From contig JANQFP010000046.1 in the NCBI GenBank assembly GCA_028277795.1, positions 1-57,651 of the forward strand: a DNA stretch of 57,651 nt, read 5' to 3'. Position numbers and translations under genes: made by a program. Position 1 is the first letter of the stretch; each line of letters opens with the position of its first letter. The notes under the pieces were generated by a model. The model did not search any database. It was not told the origin of the DNA and was given only the letters and a program-made list of their open reading frames with translations. Shown here one piece after another: positions 9,927 through 18,407 of this stretch. Source of the stretch: Rhodospirillales bacterium (lineage in GTDB: Bacteria; Pseudomonadota; Alphaproteobacteria; Rhodospirillales; JANQFP01).

Positions 9927-11699
9927 TTAGGCGGCGCCTGCCGACGCGGCTGCAACGGCGGCGCGCGGGCGCGGTCGAGGCTCCGGGCTGCCCCAGTCGG
10001 TCTTGCCCTGGCGGGCCACCAGCAGGCGGGTGACGTGGCTCGCGTTGCGGTCGGCGATGGCCGCGAGGACCGGGGCGCCGTGGCCCAGGTAGACGTCGTG
10101 GGCCTGCTGGAAGGCGGCCGCCGCCTCGTCCAGGGGCGCCGCCTCGCCGGTCAGCCGGCCGAGCAGGAACAGCGCCGAGCCCAGGTTGTTCTGGGTCGCC
10201 GCCCAGGCCAGCGGCGTGGTCTCCCGGTGCCGCACCATCAGCGCCGCCCGGCAGGCCGCCACCGCCGTCTCCAAGGCGATGCGGCTGCGGAACTGCTCAC
10301 CCAGCACCTGCGTGGCCTGGGCGAAGCCGTTCATGGCCTCGGCCCAGGCGAGCGGCGTGTGCTCCCGGCTCAGCCCCTGCAACGCCCTCTGGAAGGCGTT
10401 GACCGCGTCCTTGAGCAGCGTCACGTCGCCGACGCGGGCGTCCAACCGGTACAGCACCTGCCCCAGGCGGGTCTGGGCCGCCGCCCACTCGCGGGGGAAG
10501 TCCTGCCGGGTCATCTCGGCCAGGGAACGGGTCAGGGCCTCGGCCGCCGCCTCTAGGGTGGCCGCCCCGAGATCCCCTTCGGCGAGGATCTGCAGCACGG
10601 CGCCGAGGCTCTTGTAGGCGGTTGCCTGCTCCAAGGGCAGCTCGTCGTCGGACAGGCCGGCGAGGGCATCGCGGTAGGTCTCCGCCGCCATCAGATGGAG
10701 GCCGCGGTCGCTCCTGTGGTGGGCCAGGGTGGCCAGGGCGTGGCCGGCGCAGATGCGCGTCGCCGCCTGCTCGCGCGGCGTCATGGTCACCGGCAGGGCG
10801 GCGGCCACCGGCAGCGCGGCCTCCAAGAGGGCCGGCAACGCCGTTCCCACCCGGGCCGCCTTGTGGGGAGACCGCGGCCCGACGGCGCTCAGGGCCGTCG
10901 CCAACAGCAAGGGCGCGAACGGGCGCCCGAACTCGGTGGGCAGGACCAGCAGGGACGAGGGTCCCGGTGCGCCGGGCCGGTCCTCGACCGGCATCAGGCT
11001 GACGAACCGCAGGTGCACGGTGGCCGCCGGCGCCGGCACCTCGCCCCAGACCAGGAGGTCGGCATCGGCTGCGGACAGCAGCGCCCGGCCCCTGACGGCG
11101 GCCGTCGCCAGGGCCTCGATGGGAGATCGTGTGGGATCGCCGGCCACCACCTCGGGAATGGCGCGGGCGCGGCTGACGCGGCGCTGGTCGAGGGCGTCGA
11201 CCACCTGCCGGGTCACGGCGGCGGCGATGGCGGGATCGACCCCGGGCCCCGGTGCCAGGGGGGCGACCCGGATGTGGATGCGGTCCCGGCCCCAGCCCCA
11301 TGACAACGCGGGAGAGCGCTGGACCGAGTCGGGCGCGCGGACCGGCGGGTCGGCGGCCGGCGGTCGCGGCGTCGGTGCTCCGAACAGCAGCGCGCCGAGG
11401 CGGGACAGGACGGCTCCCGGGGCGCTTCGCAGCCACCCGATCAGGGATTCGCCCGGCAGCTCCTCGAGCACCACCGGTCCCACGGCGCGGGCGAGGACGG
11501 CGCCGCCGGAGCGTTCGAGCGCCGTCGGGTCGAGCCGGTCGCCGGCGCCGAGAACGGCCAGGGTCAACGGGCCCTTGTCGCCGGGCCGGCTGATCTCCAC
11601 GTTGCCGTCGGCCACAACGTAGGCGCGGCCGGCGCCGTGGCGCTGGTCCGTTCCGACGATGACCTCGCCATCCTCGAAGGTGTGCTGATGTCCGGCCAA
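9927..11699 (-). CDS. Cyclic nucleotide-binding-like / TPR protein
   Basis: A 590-aa cytoplasmic protein. Residues 1-80 resemble a degenerate cyclic nucleotide-binding jelly roll (FEDGEVIVGTD, VVADGNVEI, LGAGDRLD). A Pro-rich linker follows, then a middle domain with DADLLVWGEV, and from about residue 310 onward repeated TPR-like helices with the recurring pattern TPLAWA-Q-NLG-AL. The canonical phosphate-binding cassette of the cNMP fold is not obvious, so nucleotide binding is uncertain. The protein may act as a signalling scaffold. It diverges from the DUF123 gene across 105 bp that contain a CtrA-like half-site at 11746-11753. Confidence 0.65.
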   Translation of the reverse strand: MAGHQHTFEDGEVIVGTDQRHGAGRAYVVADGNVEISRPGDKGPLTLAVLGAGDRLDPTALERSGGAVLARAVGPVVLEELPGESLIGWLRSAPGAVLSRLGALLFGAPTPRPPAADPPVRAPDSVQRSPALSWGWGRDRIHIRVAPLAPGPGVDPAIAAAVTRQVVDALDQRRVSRARAIPEVVAGDPTRSPIEALATAAVRGRALLSAADADLLVWGEVPAPAATVHLRFVSLMPVEDRPGAPGPSSLLVLPTEFGRPFAPLLLATALSAVGPRSPHKAARVGTALPALLEAALPVAAALPVTMTPREQAATRICAGHALATLAHHRSDRGLHLMAAETYRDALAGLSDDELPLEQATAYKSLGAVLQILAEGDLGAATLEAAAEALTRSLAEMTRQDFPREWAAAQTRLGQVLYRLDARVGDVTLLKDAVNAFQRALQGLSREHTPLAWAEAMNGFAQATQVLGEQFRSRIALETAVAACRAALMVRHRETTPLAWAATQNNLGSALFLLGRLTGEAAPLDEAAAAFQQAHDVYLGHGAPVLAAIADRNASHVTRLLVARQGKTDWGSPEPRPRPRAAVAAASAGAA

Positions 11700-12975: not shown

Positions 12976-14361
12976 CTAATTGGTTCGCGATGCCGACGAC
13001 CTTTTTCGGGACTCCTCCACCAACGCCTCGGTGACCCGATCCATTACGCCGTCCCAGTCGCCGTGGGCGGTCTGGCGGAACAGGTGCATGGTCGGATACC
13101 ACGGGCTGTCGTCGCGGTGCCGCATCCACCGCCAGTCGCAGACGAACGGCAGGACCAGCCACACGGGGCGCGCCAAAGCACCCGCCAGGTGGGCAAGCGC
13201 GGTATCGGCGGTAATGATCAGGTCGAGCTGGGCCACCGCCTGGGCATCCCCGAAGTTGCTGAACCGGGCGCCCAGGTCGGGGATCAGCCCCTGGCAACCG
13301 TGGGCCTCGATATCCGCCACCCGCTCCCCTTTCTGGAGGTTGAACAGCACCACATTGGGCACGCTCAGCAGCTCGGCCATGTGGCCGAAGGGGAGGGACC
13401 GGTTGCGGTCGTTGCCGTGGCTGGGCTTGCCGGCCCAGGTGATGCCCACGGTCAGGGGCGCGCCGGGCAGGGCCGGCAGGCGGAAATCGCGCGGCCACGG
13501 CGGCTCCAGATAGGGCACGTCGGCGGGGATCGTGTCCAGCGTGGTGCCGAGGATGCCGGGGAGGCTCATCAGCGGCGCGTAGACGTCGAAGTCCGGCAAC
13601 GGCCCGTTGGACGGCACGAGTCGGTCGATGCCGGGGGCAGTGGCGAACAGGCGCAGCAGCTCGGGCTGGGTCTCCACCAGCACGGTGCCGCCGAGGGCCT
13701 TGACCAGCGGGGCGTAGCGGACGAACTGGATCATGTCGCCGAAGCCCTGCTCCCGGTGCAGGAAGATGGTCCGCCCATTGAGCGGCGCGCCGTCCCACAG
13801 GGGCTGGGTGAAGGTGCGCGGCGGGCTGCGGCGCAGGAGCCACCGCGACTCGGATTCGGGGAACCCCCGCTCCAGGTCGCCACTGATCAGCAGGCTGAAC
13901 GCCCGGTCCCATCGGCACTCCCCATGGTCCGGGTCGAGAGCGAGAGCGCGGTCGAAGTGCTCCAGGGCCTCGGCGTCCTCGCCCAGGTCGCGGAGCGCGA
14001 GGCCCAGGTTATAGATGGCCTCCACCGAGTCCGGGGCCAGTCCGACGGCGTGCCGGAGCCGGTCCGCCGCCTCCCGGTGGCGGCCCATGTCGCGGAGCGC
14101 GTTGCCCAGGTTGGAGTGGGTGCCCGGCGCGTCCGGCCTGAGCGCCAGCGACCGCCGGTACAGGGCCGCGGCCGCATCGGGCTTGCCGAGCGATCGCAGG
14201 GCCACGCCCATGTTGTTGAAGACATCGGGGTTGGTGGGCTCGAGAACGGAGGCGGCGGCGTAGGCTTTGAGCGCCTCGGCCAGACGGCCGCGGCGTTGCA
14301 GGGCGACGGCCTGGGCGATGATGGACGCGGCGTCCGGTGGGCGCCCCTTGCTTGCCGCCAT
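12976..14361 (-). CDS. TPR protein with GT9/GT41-like glycosyltransferase domain
   Basis: A 461-aa protein. Residues 10-170 are four to five tetratricopeptide repeats (PDVFNNMGVALRSLGKPDAA, GTHSNLGNALRDMGRH and so on). The C-terminal half has ADTALAHLAGAL preceded by LGARFSNFGD and GITWAGKPSHGNDRNRS, as in heptosyltransferase-like/GT-B proteins often fused to TPRs in alphaproteobacteria. It may glycosylate proteins or surface polymers; donor and acceptor are unknown. It follows the GH65 gene by 30 bp on the same strand and may be the last gene of that operon, though a functional link is not obvious. Confidence 0.8.
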   Translation of the reverse strand: MAASKGRPPDAASIIAQAVALQRRGRLAEALKAYAAASVLEPTNPDVFNNMGVALRSLGKPDAAAALYRRSLALRPDAPGTHSNLGNALRDMGRHREAADRLRHAVGLAPDSVEAIYNLGLALRDLGEDAEALEHFDRALALDPDHGECRWDRAFSLLISGDLERGFPESESRWLLRRSPPRTFTQPLWDGAPLNGRTIFLHREQGFGDMIQFVRYAPLVKALGGTVLVETQPELLRLFATAPGIDRLVPSNGPLPDFDVYAPLMSLPGILGTTLDTIPADVPYLEPPWPRDFRLPALPGAPLTVGITWAGKPSHGNDRNRSLPFGHMAELLSVPNVVLFNLQKGERVADIEAHGCQGLIPDLGARFSNFGDAQAVAQLDLIITADTALAHLAGALARPVWLVLPFVCDWRWMRHRDDSPWYPTMHLFRQTAHGDWDGVMDRVTEALVEESRKRSSASRTN

Positions 14362-14391: not shown

Positions 14392-16788
14392 TCAGAGCGC
14401 GAATTCGCGGGCGTAGCCCGAGCGCAGGTAGTAGATCCGATCGCCTATCCCCACCTTGACCGTGTCCGGCCCGCCGTGCTGGGGCGCGATCTTGATCTTG
14501 TTGGCGGTCAGCTCCACGTCCAGCCACATGCCGCGGAAGAACAAGGAGAACTTGAGCCCATGCATCTTGTGGGGGAGCAGAGGGTTGAAGAACAGCACGT
14601 CGTCGCGGATCTCCGCCCCCATGTAGCCGCGCTGGATCAGGTCCACGGTGCCGGCCATGACGCCCAGGTGGATGCCCTCGACGGTGGTGCCGCCCTGGAT
14701 GTCGCCGATATCGCTTTCCAGGGCCGCCATGAACATGTCCCACGATCCATCGGGGTCGAAACCGGGCGTGATCGCCGAATGGACGATGAGGCTCAGCGTC
14801 GAGCCGTGGGAGGTGTGCTTGTAGTAATACTCGATGTTCTTGGGCGCGGTGTGCTCGTCGAAGGGGCAGCCCAGGCGCTCGAAGATGGCGCGTAAGCTGT
14901 CCTCGGAGAACAGGTAGAACAGCATCAGGGCGTCGGCCTGCTTGGACAGCTTGTAGTGGTCGGCCGAGTCGCCCTCCGCCTCGAGGATGCGGTCCATGCG
15001 CTGGATGTTGCCGTACTTCTCCCGGTAGGCGTCCCAGTCCAGCTCCTCGAGGTCGTCGAAACCCTCGAATTGGCTGATGAGGCCGTCGCCGTGGTAGGGC
15101 ACGTACATCTTGTGGGCCATGTCCGCCCACAGCGAGACCTCCTCGTCCGTGATCTCCAGGGTCTCGCGCAGCTCGTCGCGGCGGTGGTCGAGCAGGCCGT
15201 CCAGGGCCTCCAGGGCGATCTCCATGATCCACGCCACCATGACGTTGGTGTAGGCGTTGTTCTTGACGCCCCCCTCTTCGGCCCCCGGATACTTCTCGTG
15301 GTACTCGTTGGGGCCCATGACGCCATGGATCTCATAGCGGTCGCGCTTGGGATTGTAATGGGCGATGGAGGCCCAGAAGCGGGCGATCTCGAACAGCATC
15401 TCGGCGCCGTAGACGGCCATGAAGCGCTCGTCGCCCGTGGCTTGGTAGTACTGCCAGATGTTGTAGGCGATGGCGGCGTTGACGTGGCGCTGGTTATGGC
15501 TGAGGTCGGGATGCCAGCGCCCCGACTTGGGGTTCAGGTGCACCACCTGGGTCTCCTCGCGGCCGTTGGAGCCGCTCTGCCACGGGAACATGGCACCCTT
15601 GTAGCCTGCCTCCTGGGCGTGGGCCCGGGCCTCGTCGAGGCGGCGGTAGCGGTACAGCAGCATCGACCGGCTGACCTCGGGCAGGCGGAAGTTGAGGAAC
15701 GGCAGGATGTAGAGCTCGTCCCAGAAGATATGCCCGCGGTAGGCCTCTCCGTGCAGGCCGCGGGCGGGGGTGCCGGCGTCCAGGTCTATGGTGTTGCGTG
15801 ACAGGGTCTGGAGCAGGTGGAAGATGTGCAGGCGCACGACCATCTGGATGCGGTCCTGGCCCGCGAAGGTGATATCGCAGCGGTGCCAGAGCTGGCCCCA
15901 CTCCAGGCGGTGGTAACGCAACATGGTGGCAAAGTCGCTGCCCCGGGTGATTCGCGTCCTGGCCTCGGTGCCCGGTTCGTAGATGCCGCGGTCGCGCGAC
16001 GTGAAAAAGCGCACGATTTTCTCGACCCGCACCGGGCGGCCCTCGTCAATTTGGAAGGCCAAGTCCTGGCAGATGCGCTCGTCTTCCTCGTGCGTGGTGC
16101 GCTCGACCTCGAGCGGCACCTGTTCCCCGTCGAAGAACACGCGGGTGCGGGCGGCCTGGGCCACCTGGATGCGCGACTGGTTGGTCTGGGCCAGCAAGAA
16201 GATGGCCTCGTCGTCGGCCGGCCCCATCTCCAGGGTTTCCAGGTGTTTGGACGCCAAGTCGCGATAGCGCGCCACGTTGTTGTTGATGACGCCAGCGTCC
16301 AGGCCCGAGCGCACCTCCACCCGCCCCGACCAGTTGCGGGCCGTCAGGGTCCACTCGATACCCGCCTTGTGGGCGCGCGCCATGTTGACCAGCCGCCGGC
16401 TGGTGAGCGCGGTCTCCCGGCCCGCCTTGTCGCGGAACTCCAGGACGCGGATCATGAGCCCGTCCTTCATGTCCAGCTCCTGGCGGTAGGTGGTGAGGTC
16501 CACGTCGGCCAGGTTGAACCACTCGCCGCCCTCGATGCGGAAGGTCAGCGGCAGCCAGTTGGGCATGTTGACTAGGTCCTCGTTGACCACCGGCCGCCCC
16601 GCCACCTCGGTGGTCAGGCGGTTGAAGCCGCCGGCCATGTAGGTGCCCGGATAATGCGTGCCGTCGTCGGTCGCCCACTCGGCGGCCCCCCGGGTGCAGA
16701 AATAGCCGTTCCCGAGCGCGGTCAGGGACTCGCGCAGGCCTTCCTCCTCGGGCACGAAACCATCGTAGACCAGGGTCCATGGAGTCAT
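14392..16788 (-). CDS. Glycoside hydrolase family 65 alpha-disaccharide phosphorylase-like protein
   Basis: A 798-aa protein from the ATG at 16788 (GGGGGAAAC just upstream), normal length for GH65. Order is N-terminal beta-sandwich, (alpha/alpha)6 barrel and small C-terminal sheet. The barrel has GPNEYHE, whose Glu (residue 495) matches the general acid of maltose phosphorylase (Glu487 in Lactobacillus), and HTSHGSTLS, matching the phosphate-binding loop. GH65 enzymes split trehalose, maltose, kojibiose or nigerose with phosphate to glucose and beta-glucose 1-phosphate. The upstream beta-phosphoglucomutase-like gene would convert beta-glucose 1-phosphate to glucose 6-phosphate, and the OtsB-like gene between them hints at trehalose chemistry. 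The actual disaccharide cannot be read from sequence. Confidence 0.93.
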   Translation of the reverse strand: MTPWTLVYDGFVPEEEGLRESLTALGNGYFCTRGAAEWATDDGTHYPGTYMAGGFNRLTTEVAGRPVVNEDLVNMPNWLPLTFRIEGGEWFNLADVDLTTYRQELDMKDGLMIRVLEFRDKAGRETALTSRRLVNMARAHKAGIEWTLTARNWSGRVEVRSGLDAGVINNNVARYRDLASKHLETLEMGPADDEAIFLLAQTNQSRIQVAQAARTRVFFDGEQVPLEVERTTHEEDERICQDLAFQIDEGRPVRVEKIVRFFTSRDRGIYEPGTEARTRITRGSDFATMLRYHRLEWGQLWHRCDITFAGQDRIQMVVRLHIFHLLQTLSRNTIDLDAGTPARGLHGEAYRGHIFWDELYILPFLNFRLPEVSRSMLLYRYRRLDEARAHAQEAGYKGAMFPWQSGSNGREETQVVHLNPKSGRWHPDLSHNQRHVNAAIAYNIWQYYQATGDERFMAVYGAEMLFEIARFWASIAHYNPKRDRYEIHGVMGPNEYHEKYPGAEEGGVKNNAYTNVMVAWIMEIALEALDGLLDHRRDELRETLEITDEEVSLWADMAHKMYVPYHGDGLISQFEGFDDLEELDWDAYREKYGNIQRMDRILEAEGDSADHYKLSKQADALMLFYLFSEDSLRAIFERLGCPFDEHTAPKNIEYYYKHTSHGSTLSLIVHSAITPGFDPDGSWDMFMAALESDIGDIQGGTTVEGIHLGVMAGTVDLIQRGYMGAEIRDDVLFFNPLLPHKMHGLKFSLFFRGMWLDVELTANKIKIAPQHGGPDTVKVGIGDRIYYLRSGYAREFAL

Positions 16789-16813
16789 GACGTTTCCCCC
16801 TTCCGCGTGTTCT

Positions 16814-17626
16814 TCAGGTGCCGAGCATGGACAGCAGCTCGGCCACCTCGTCCTGATTGTGGCAGAGGTAATCGGCGGCGGTGGTGCGCCCGGCCACCTC
16901 GGGGTCCGTCGGGTCGCCGACGAAGACGTTGAGGCCGTCCTTGGTCTTGAGCGCCTCGAAGGCATGCTCGTCGGTGTGGTCGTCGCCGAAGTACATGGGC
17001 AGCACGTCGGGGCCGGTCAGGTCCAGGGCCTCCAGCAGGTAGAGCACCGCCTTGCCCTTGTCCCAGTCCAGCTTGGGCTGGATCTCGTAGACCATCTTGC
17101 CCGGCGTCACCTTGAGCTGGCTGTTCTTGGCCAGGATGTCGTCGACCAACTCCTTCACCTTGGGGCGTTCGGCTTCGGCGATGTTGCGGTAGTGCACCGC
17201 CACCGAAGCCTTCTTGGGCTCGATCTGCGAGCCCTCGATCGGGTCCAGCTCCCGGTGCAGCCGTGCCTTGATCTCCTCCAGGAGGGGGTAGAACTCCGCC
17301 CCTTCCTCGCGCTGGATGGAGCGGCCGTCGGGGCTGGCGATGTCGAATCCGTGGCTGCCGGCGTAGATGAGGCCTTCGATCTGCACAATGCCCTCCACGT
17401 CGGGCCGGTCGCGGCCGCTGACGATGCACACGGTGCAGCGCTTCGACAGGTCGCGGACCACCTCGCGCATCTTGGGGTCCATGACGGCCCATTCGGGGCG
17501 CGCCACGATGGGGGTCAGCGTGCCGTCGTAGTCGAGGAAGATGGCCAGTCGCTTGCCGCCGGTGCGGGCGGCCAGGTCGTCGCCGCTGTCGACGGCCTTG
17601 GGCAGGTCGCTGATGTGCCGGGTCAT
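16814..17626 (-). CDS. otsB: Trehalose-6-phosphate phosphatase (HAD family)
   Basis: A 270-aa protein with the full HAD set: LDYDGTLTPI (Asp32 nucleophile, Asp34), IVSGRDRPD, a Lys in GKAVLYLLEAL, and YFGDDHTDEHAF for metal binding. The cap segment includes AGSHGFDI, typical of OtsB. It would remove phosphate from trehalose 6-phosphate in the cytoplasm. No OtsA is in the window. It lies 13 bp after the beta-phosphoglucomutase gene and 25 bp before GH65. The three proteins in this order (255 + 270 + 798 aa) add up to almost exactly the length of the three-domain mycobacterial OtsB1 (Rv2006). Confidence 0.9.
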   Translation of the reverse strand: MTRHISDLPKAVDSGDDLAARTGGKRLAIFLDYDGTLTPIVARPEWAVMDPKMREVVRDLSKRCTVCIVSGRDRPDVEGIVQIEGLIYAGSHGFDIASPDGRSIQREEGAEFYPLLEEIKARLHRELDPIEGSQIEPKKASVAVHYRNIAEAERPKVKELVDDILAKNSQLKVTPGKMVYEIQPKLDWDKGKAVLYLLEALDLTGPDVLPMYFGDDHTDEHAFEALKTKDGLNVFVGDPTDPEVAGRTTAADYLCHNQDEVAELLSMLGT

Positions 17627-17639
17627 GAAATGTTGTCCC

Positions 17640-18407
17640 TCATTCGAAATCGTGGCTCACCTCGCCGATGTCCTTGACCACCACATCGGCGCCGTTTTCG
17701 GCCAGGGCCTCGGCCTCGTCGTGACGGTCGACGCCGATGACCAGGCCGAAATTCCCCGCGCGGCCGGCCTGGACGCCGGAGATGGCGTCCTCGACCACCA
17801 CCGAGCGCTCGGCGCTGGCCCCGACGCGCCGGGCCGCCGCCAGGTAGGTGTCGGGATCCGGCTTGCCGGGGAGGTTCTCCTCGGCGGCGACGACGCCATC
17901 CACCTGCACGTCGAAGAGGTCCAAAATCCCGACCGATTCCAGGACCGCCGTGCAGTTCTTGGAGGACGAGACGATGCCGACCTTGATGCCCGCCTGCTTG
18001 AGGTCGCGGACGAACTGGACCGAGGTCTCGAAGACGTCGGCCCCCTGTTTCTTCAAGGTGTCGTTGAACAGGGCGTTCTTCTTGTTCCCCAGACCGCAAA
18101 CCGTCTCCTGGTCGGGGCCGTCGCTGGGGTCGCCCCACGGCAGCTCGATGCCGCGGGACCGCAGGAAGCTGTCGACCCCGTCGTAGCGGGGCTTGCCGTC
18201 CACGTAGACCCGGTAGTCGGGCTCGATCTCGAAGGGCTTGAAGGGGACGTTGTCGCGCTCGGCGACGTACTTGAGGTATTCGTCGAACAGCGCCTTCCAG
18301 GCGACGGAATGGACGCTCGCGGTGTCGGTGATGACGCCGTCCAGGTCGAAGAGGACGGCATCGTACTTGTCCTTGGACACGATGTGGTCGGAGTCAGGCG
18401 TCGGCAT
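17640..18407 (-). CDS. pgmB: Beta-phosphoglucomutase-like HAD protein
   Basis: A 255-aa protein with the HAD phosphoryl-transfer motif VLFDLDGVITDT (Asp21 nucleophile, Asp23 acid/base, as in phosphomutases), a helical cap, VGIVSSSKN (motif II), GKPDPDTYL (motif III Lys) and VVVEDAISGVQAG (motif IV). These fit beta-phosphoglucomutase, which turns beta-glucose 1-phosphate into glucose 6-phosphate. It is the first gene of the otsB-GH65 operon and provides the natural sink for the GH65 product. The 230-bp region upstream separates it from a divergent radical SAM gene and should hold both promoters. Confidence 0.85.
   Translation of the reverse strand: MPTPDSDHIVSKDKYDAVLFDLDGVITDTASVHSVAWKALFDEYLKYVAERDNVPFKPFEIEPDYRVYVDGKPRYDGVDSFLRSRGIELPWGDPSDGPDQETVCGLGNKKNALFNDTLKKQGADVFETSVQFVRDLKQAGIKVGIVSSSKNCTAVLESVGILDLFDVQVDGVVAAEENLPGKPDPDTYLAAARRVGASAERSVVVEDAISGVQAGRAGNFGLVIGVDRHDEAEALAENGADVVVKDIGEVSHDFE

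Follow-up and report, generated by a model that had tools for sequence, protein, structure and literature searches.

The locus described here raises the question of what a phosphoglucomutase-like protein, an OtsB-like phosphatase and a protein of family GH65 do side by side in a genome of the Rhodospirillales, and how their genes are related to the mycobacterial protein OtsB1 (Rv2006), in which the same domains are fused. The whole stretch of DNA analysed, 57,651 nucleotides long, is referred to below as the window. An earlier note on this DNA had described a pgmB-otsB-GH65 operon and read it as the domain order of OtsB1 in unfused form. The three-gene arrangement is real (Table 1): the trio spans window positions 18407-14392 on the minus strand in the order PGM, OtsB, GH65. 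No promoter- or terminator-like sites were found inside the trio by a pattern scan, the promoter pattern being a poor guide in a GC-rich genome.

Table 1. Genes and intergenic gaps of the trio, in window coordinates
Feature	Position	Strand	Models, nearest structure or basis
Gene 1, beta-phosphoglucomutase-family HAD hydrolase (PGM), 255 aa	17640..18407	minus	TIGR02009, 8h5s
Gap between genes 1 and 2, 13 nt, SD-like GAGGG ahead of gene 2	17627..17639	minus	sequence
Gene 2, OtsB-like trehalose-6-phosphate phosphatase (predicted), 270 aa	16814..17626	minus	TIGR00685, PF02358, 5gvx
Gap between genes 2 and 3, 25 nt, SD-like AAGGGGGAAAC ahead of gene 3	16789..16813	minus	sequence
Gene 3, GH65 protein, 798 aa	14392..16788	minus	PF03632/PF03636/PF03633, 9lb6

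Two further genes of the minus strand lie nearby. A gene of a TPR protein (window 12976-14361), with a weak glycosyltransferase-9-like match, begins 30 nt past the GH65 stop and could be co-transcribed with it, and an ORF of 590 aa (window 9927-11699) has no Pfam match.

Gene 1 scores above the subfamily cut-off of the NCBIfam model TIGR02009 (174.8 against 153.35 bits), contains all of the residues D21/D23, H33, R74 and K110, and has as its nearest solved chain 8h5s, named 'Beta-phosphoglucomutase' (228 bits). Its score is below the cut-off of the beta-PGM equivalog TIGR01990 (112.6 vs 189.4 bits), and therefore its exact reaction, a mutase activity on beta-glucose 1-phosphate (beta-G1P), is one that we infer. 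Gene 2 is well above the cut-off of the trehalose-phosphatase equivalog TIGR00685 (178.7 bits, cut-off 68.05), matches the Pfam family PF02358 (180 bits) and carries the HAD motifs D32/D34, K190 and GDDHTDE; its nearest solved chain is 5gvx (165 bits). In gene 3, the N-terminal, catalytic and C-terminal domains of GH65 (PF03636, PF03632 and PF03633) are all above cut-off, and the catalytic glutamate, E495, is invariant among the GH65 proteins compared. The catalytic residues named in the earlier note (Asp21/Asp23, Asp32/Asp34 with GDDHTDE, and Glu495) are thus in place in all three proteins and are kept among their homologues. What the note missed is the residue adjoining E495, Asn494, which stands where 114 of 114 other aligned GH65 proteins have Asp. 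This replacement of a conserved residue may impair the copy in the window, the activity of which therefore cannot be assumed.

The kojibiose hydrolase assignment (NF053734) is ruled out for the GH65 protein, with 183.4 bits against an equivalog cut-off of 800. By both sequence and fold, its nearest solved relative is 9lb6 (491 bits; Z 47.7, rmsd 2.1 over 769 residues, with a predicted model of pLDDT 89.5). This Weissella structure bears the molecule name 'Trehalose-6-phosphate hydrolase' and the title 'trehalose 6-phosphate phosphatase Weissella ceti'. Since these labels disagree and a literature search by the PDB code found no relevant paper, the names of 9lb6 serve as a lead only. The GH65 proteins of the trios have in common with 9lb6 an acceptor loop ending in QRH, the motif WQSG, an insertion after EYH, and the motifs HGST and QGGTTxEG, a signature missing from the structures of kojibiose, maltose and glucosylglycerol phosphorylases. 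Judged by this signature, the window GH65 belongs to a subgroup with 9lb6.

Phosphorylases of GH65 bind phosphate by Lys, His and two Ser, while hydrolases of the family use Glu as the base (PMC8626586). In the window protein His707 is kept, the Ser-Ser pair is S663-T664, the Lys position is occupied by R343, with Arg also present in 4ktp, and the position of the hydrolase base is occupied by Gln698, not Glu; the Lys and base positions were mapped by us from residue spacing. The retention or conservative replacement of the phosphate-site residues, together with Gln698, favours a phosphorylase rather than a hydrolase. The linked gene 1 also points this way, since beta-PGM takes beta-G1P, which is supplied by inverting alpha-glucoside phosphorylases. 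Trehalose 6-phosphate (T6P) is a putative product of the GH65 protein.

The linkage of the three genes was followed in a census that took in about 120 GH65 loci. Close GH65 matches, of 847 bits or more, occur at 12 loci in 11 of 385 alphaproteobacterial genomes, and nine of these 11 genomes have PGM, OtsB and GH65 together in this order. Chance co-location is ruled out by this frequency and by the nearly fixed order. A scan of named genomes gave at least 594 matching stretches, of which the best 80 were analysed, so that proportions are biased to close relatives. According to the record titles, these 80 belong to Pseudomonadota, Actinomycetota, Bacteroidota, Nitrospirota, Planctomycetes, deltaproteobacterial groups and others, and many are MAGs. 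The commonest form among the matches listed is a PGM-OtsB fusion followed by a separate GH65 gene (33 of the best 80, two with an additional PGM); three separate genes were found nine times, triple fusions four times and PGM-GH65 fusions nine times, along with smaller classes. Loci with GH65 only number eight in the census, and similar forms of the trio are present in plasmid records. One trio-type GH65 (L125) comes from a MAG titled Bifidobacterium breve, with a genome of about 5.0 Mb, and this title looks doubtful.

The order PGM, OtsB, GH65 accordingly recurs as three genes, as a PGM-OtsB fusion with GH65 and as a single protein. Eight architecture labels placed on the GH65 tree require at least 39 changes, vs 69.7 with shuffled labels. 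Triple fusions fall into two groups or more, namely those of Mycobacteriales, which are of the Rv2006 type, and a mixed set from outside this order. The trio is a widespread conserved module, which the window carries as separate genes and which is fused elsewhere. The linkage argument of the earlier note was therefore right and stronger than the sequence alone could show, with an operon, a partial fusion and a triple fusion all keeping one order, and the relatives of the locus are not scattered genes. Because the same module occurs elsewhere as one or two fused proteins, the three enzymes are likely to work together on trehalose or T6P. No paper on the three-gene module was found in a search that took in few subscription papers, so its novelty is not proven.

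No constant wider neighbourhood was found around the trio in the census loci, where the flanking genes are diverse; the only recurring neighbours encode P-type cation ATPase, PfkB, OtsA, PEP synthase, TreY, phosphoketolase and glucokinase. Of about 106 loci, 17 have the ATPase gene no more than 6 kb away from the trio (for example, L067:1435-4230, L079:8444-11140 and L135:8564-11251). PMC2867773 gives a cation ATPase gene, ctpF (Rv1997), as DosR-regulated along with Rv2006; the two observations may coincide by chance.

The relation to the mycobacterial protein was considered using 150 genomes of Mycobacteriales, the order that includes Rhodococcus, in which 11 fusion ORFs were examined as stand-ins for Rv2006. 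All 11 are single ORFs of 1232-1457 aa with the order PGM-OtsB-GH65, as the earlier note had given for Rv2006, and they share with the window trio the same three domains, homologous throughout. They differ in being one polypeptide in place of three ORFs, in belonging to a separate clade and in the decay of PGM in six. In the GH65 tree, with SH-aLRT as the sole branch support, the 11 fusions and three forms scored as OtsB-GH65 make up one clade, four further triple fusions (L066, L084, L086 and L116) are placed outside it, and the window falls in a third clade, a deep one, next to split forms from MAGs of Rhodospirillales and Geminicoccaceae. Since the clades differ, the window trio is, on this tree, a sister arrangement to the mycobacterial fusions and not an unfused mycobacterial gene. 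The description as an unfused copy is abandoned also because triple fusions exist outside Mycobacteriales and the commonest form is the PGM-OtsB fusion with GH65. The latter, found for example in Indioceanicola, Croceicoccus, Legionella lytica and Pontibacter, agrees with the window in order and in homologous domains and differs in the fusion of the first two, which are separate in the window.

The PGM cap is lost in six of the 11 Mycobacteriales fusions (L152 and L157-L161), and the DxD motif is not intact in five of these six; three working activities are therefore not universal among the fusions. Rv2006 itself, of 1327 aa, is listed with unknown function; T6P phosphatase activity was assigned only to OtsB2 and not to Rv2006, the deletion of which gave no obvious phenotype (PMC11046441). 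Rv2006 is also among the training genes of the DosR hypoxia regulon (PMC2867773). As a separate observation, residues 72-423 of the 5gvx chain, a mycobacterial OtsB2-type protein, align across the decayed PGM and OtsB domains of one fusion (L157:2916-4286, 365 bits), which suggests that the additional N-terminal region of OtsB2 is what remains of a PGM domain. Most of the sampled Mycobacteriales also contain GH65 proteins of another, distant family (27-32% identical to the window GH65), separate from the trio type.

Trehalose metabolism in the genome of the window, scored as 100% complete in 253 contigs, is represented by one OtsB, one GH65, one GH15, two TreS-maltokinase fusions (L012 on C248 and L013 on C89), TreZ and several GlgB/GlgX. 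Neither GT20/OtsA nor a sugar PTS EIIC was found in these 253 contigs. The TreS-maltokinase and GlgB/GlgX copies suggest an extensive metabolism of glycogen and trehalose that does without OtsA. Among alphaproteobacterial genomes with OtsB, OtsA is missing from four of nine with the trio vs six of 87 without it (Fisher p 0.006, kinship ignored). OtsA is present in 32 of the 40 named trio genomes among the matches listed, by which the trio as a general replacement of OtsA is ruled out.

The pathway sketched in the earlier note, from T6P through trehalose to glucose, thus has no source of T6P in this genome. The reading that we prefer, tentatively, is a conserved module connecting glucose 6-phosphate (G6P), beta-G1P and T6P or trehalose, which in this organism would run in the direction of trehalose and need no nucleotide sugar. 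PGM would convert G6P to beta-G1P; GH65, working in reverse, would join beta-G1P and G6P into T6P with release of phosphate; OtsB would then strip the phosphate from T6P, yielding trehalose and pulling the reaction forward. The direction of synthesis, T6P as the GH65 product and the activity of all three proteins are inferred. With neither OtsA nor PTS EIIC found, reverse GH65 is the only T6P source that can be named, which favours synthesis, and the retention of OtsB with intact motifs counts on the same side. The uneven absence of OtsA, the 9lb6-type signature, the phosphorylase-like phosphate site, and the gene order and fusions were also counted as support. Compared with synthesis by OtsA and OtsB, the OtsB step would be common to both, and PGM with GH65 would take the place of OtsA.

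The T6P phosphorylase of lactic acid bacteria with PgmB (EC 2.4.1.216) offers a partial parallel. In Companilactobacillus (L046) GH65 adjoins beta-PGM, and its acceptor-loop signature is common to the window GH65 and 9lb6, but this pair has no OtsB and the identity is only 36-38%. In lactic acid bacteria T6P is imported via PTS, an entry route with no counterpart found in the genome of the window. The L. lactis T6P phosphorylase forms T6P from beta-G1P and G6P in vitro (PMC13121652), which was counted for synthesis. Against synthesis stand the frequent presence of OtsA in the named trio genomes listed, the PfkB, glucokinase and phosphoketolase neighbours, which suit breakdown, the conflicting labels of 9lb6, the possible impairment by N494, a Fisher test that ignores kinship and the division of the genome into 253 contigs. 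The direction may differ between hosts.

Breakdown comes close behind in probability, well short of an even chance. OtsB would release trehalose from T6P, GH65 would split trehalose or T6P with phosphate, giving beta-G1P and glucose or G6P, and PGM would pass the beta-G1P as G6P to glycolysis, so that a stress reserve would be mobilised at reduced ATP cost. The neighbours PfkB (10 loci), PEP synthase (five), phosphoketolase (four) and glucokinase (three) suit this reading, as do a one-strand cluster of PGM-OtsB, GH65, a GH15 trehalase-like gene, OtsA and Glk (G184), the GH65 gene adjoining TreZ-MalQ-TreY in Marinobacter orientalis, and the ability of the genome of the window to make trehalose via TreS. 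Such neighbours, among which are also OtsA beside a trehalase-like GH15 gene (L050) and TreY/TreZ, suit breakdown or a reserve cycle just as well. Where a genome has neither OtsA nor PTS, however, the OtsB step of this pathway lacks a known substrate, and if T6P is the substrate of GH65, OtsB would be its competitor instead of feeding it.

A rather unlikely reading is that GH65 acts on another alpha-glucoside, such as a glucosyl polyol, and the OtsB-like phosphatase on the matching sugar phosphate, trehalose being a label inherited from annotation. It draws on the wide range of GH65 specificities, on an acceptor loop unlike that of every well-described GH65 structure and on Rv2006 reportedly lacking T6P phosphatase activity (PMC11046441), but OtsB is far above the trehalose-phosphatase cut-off, certain loci adjoin OtsA or TreY/TreZ, and 9lb6 is labelled with trehalose-6-phosphate. 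A loose sugar-phosphate neighbourhood that travels on mobile DNA without forming a pathway is very improbable: many copies lie on plasmids and subsets occur alone (eight GH65-only and nine PGM-GH65 fusion loci), but the near-fixed order, the occurrence of triple fusions in two or more separate groups and the many partial fusions would be difficult to explain if the three did not act jointly, and linkage holds in nine of the 11 alphaproteobacterial genomes.

The preferred reading, synthesis of trehalose, leads to a more general and more doubtful proposition, that beta-PGM, a T6P phosphorylase of GH65 run in reverse and OtsB form a natural trehalose route free of nucleotide sugars, replacing OtsA in some bacteria. 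If T6P is made by GH65, this would be an additional route to trehalose without UDP-glucose, and a testable function would be given to the mycobacterial OtsB1 fusion. The concrete question raised is whether GH65 makes or breaks T6P. The window, with separate genes, catalytic residues in place and no detectable OtsA, offers single enzymes suited to assays that would bear on Rv2006.
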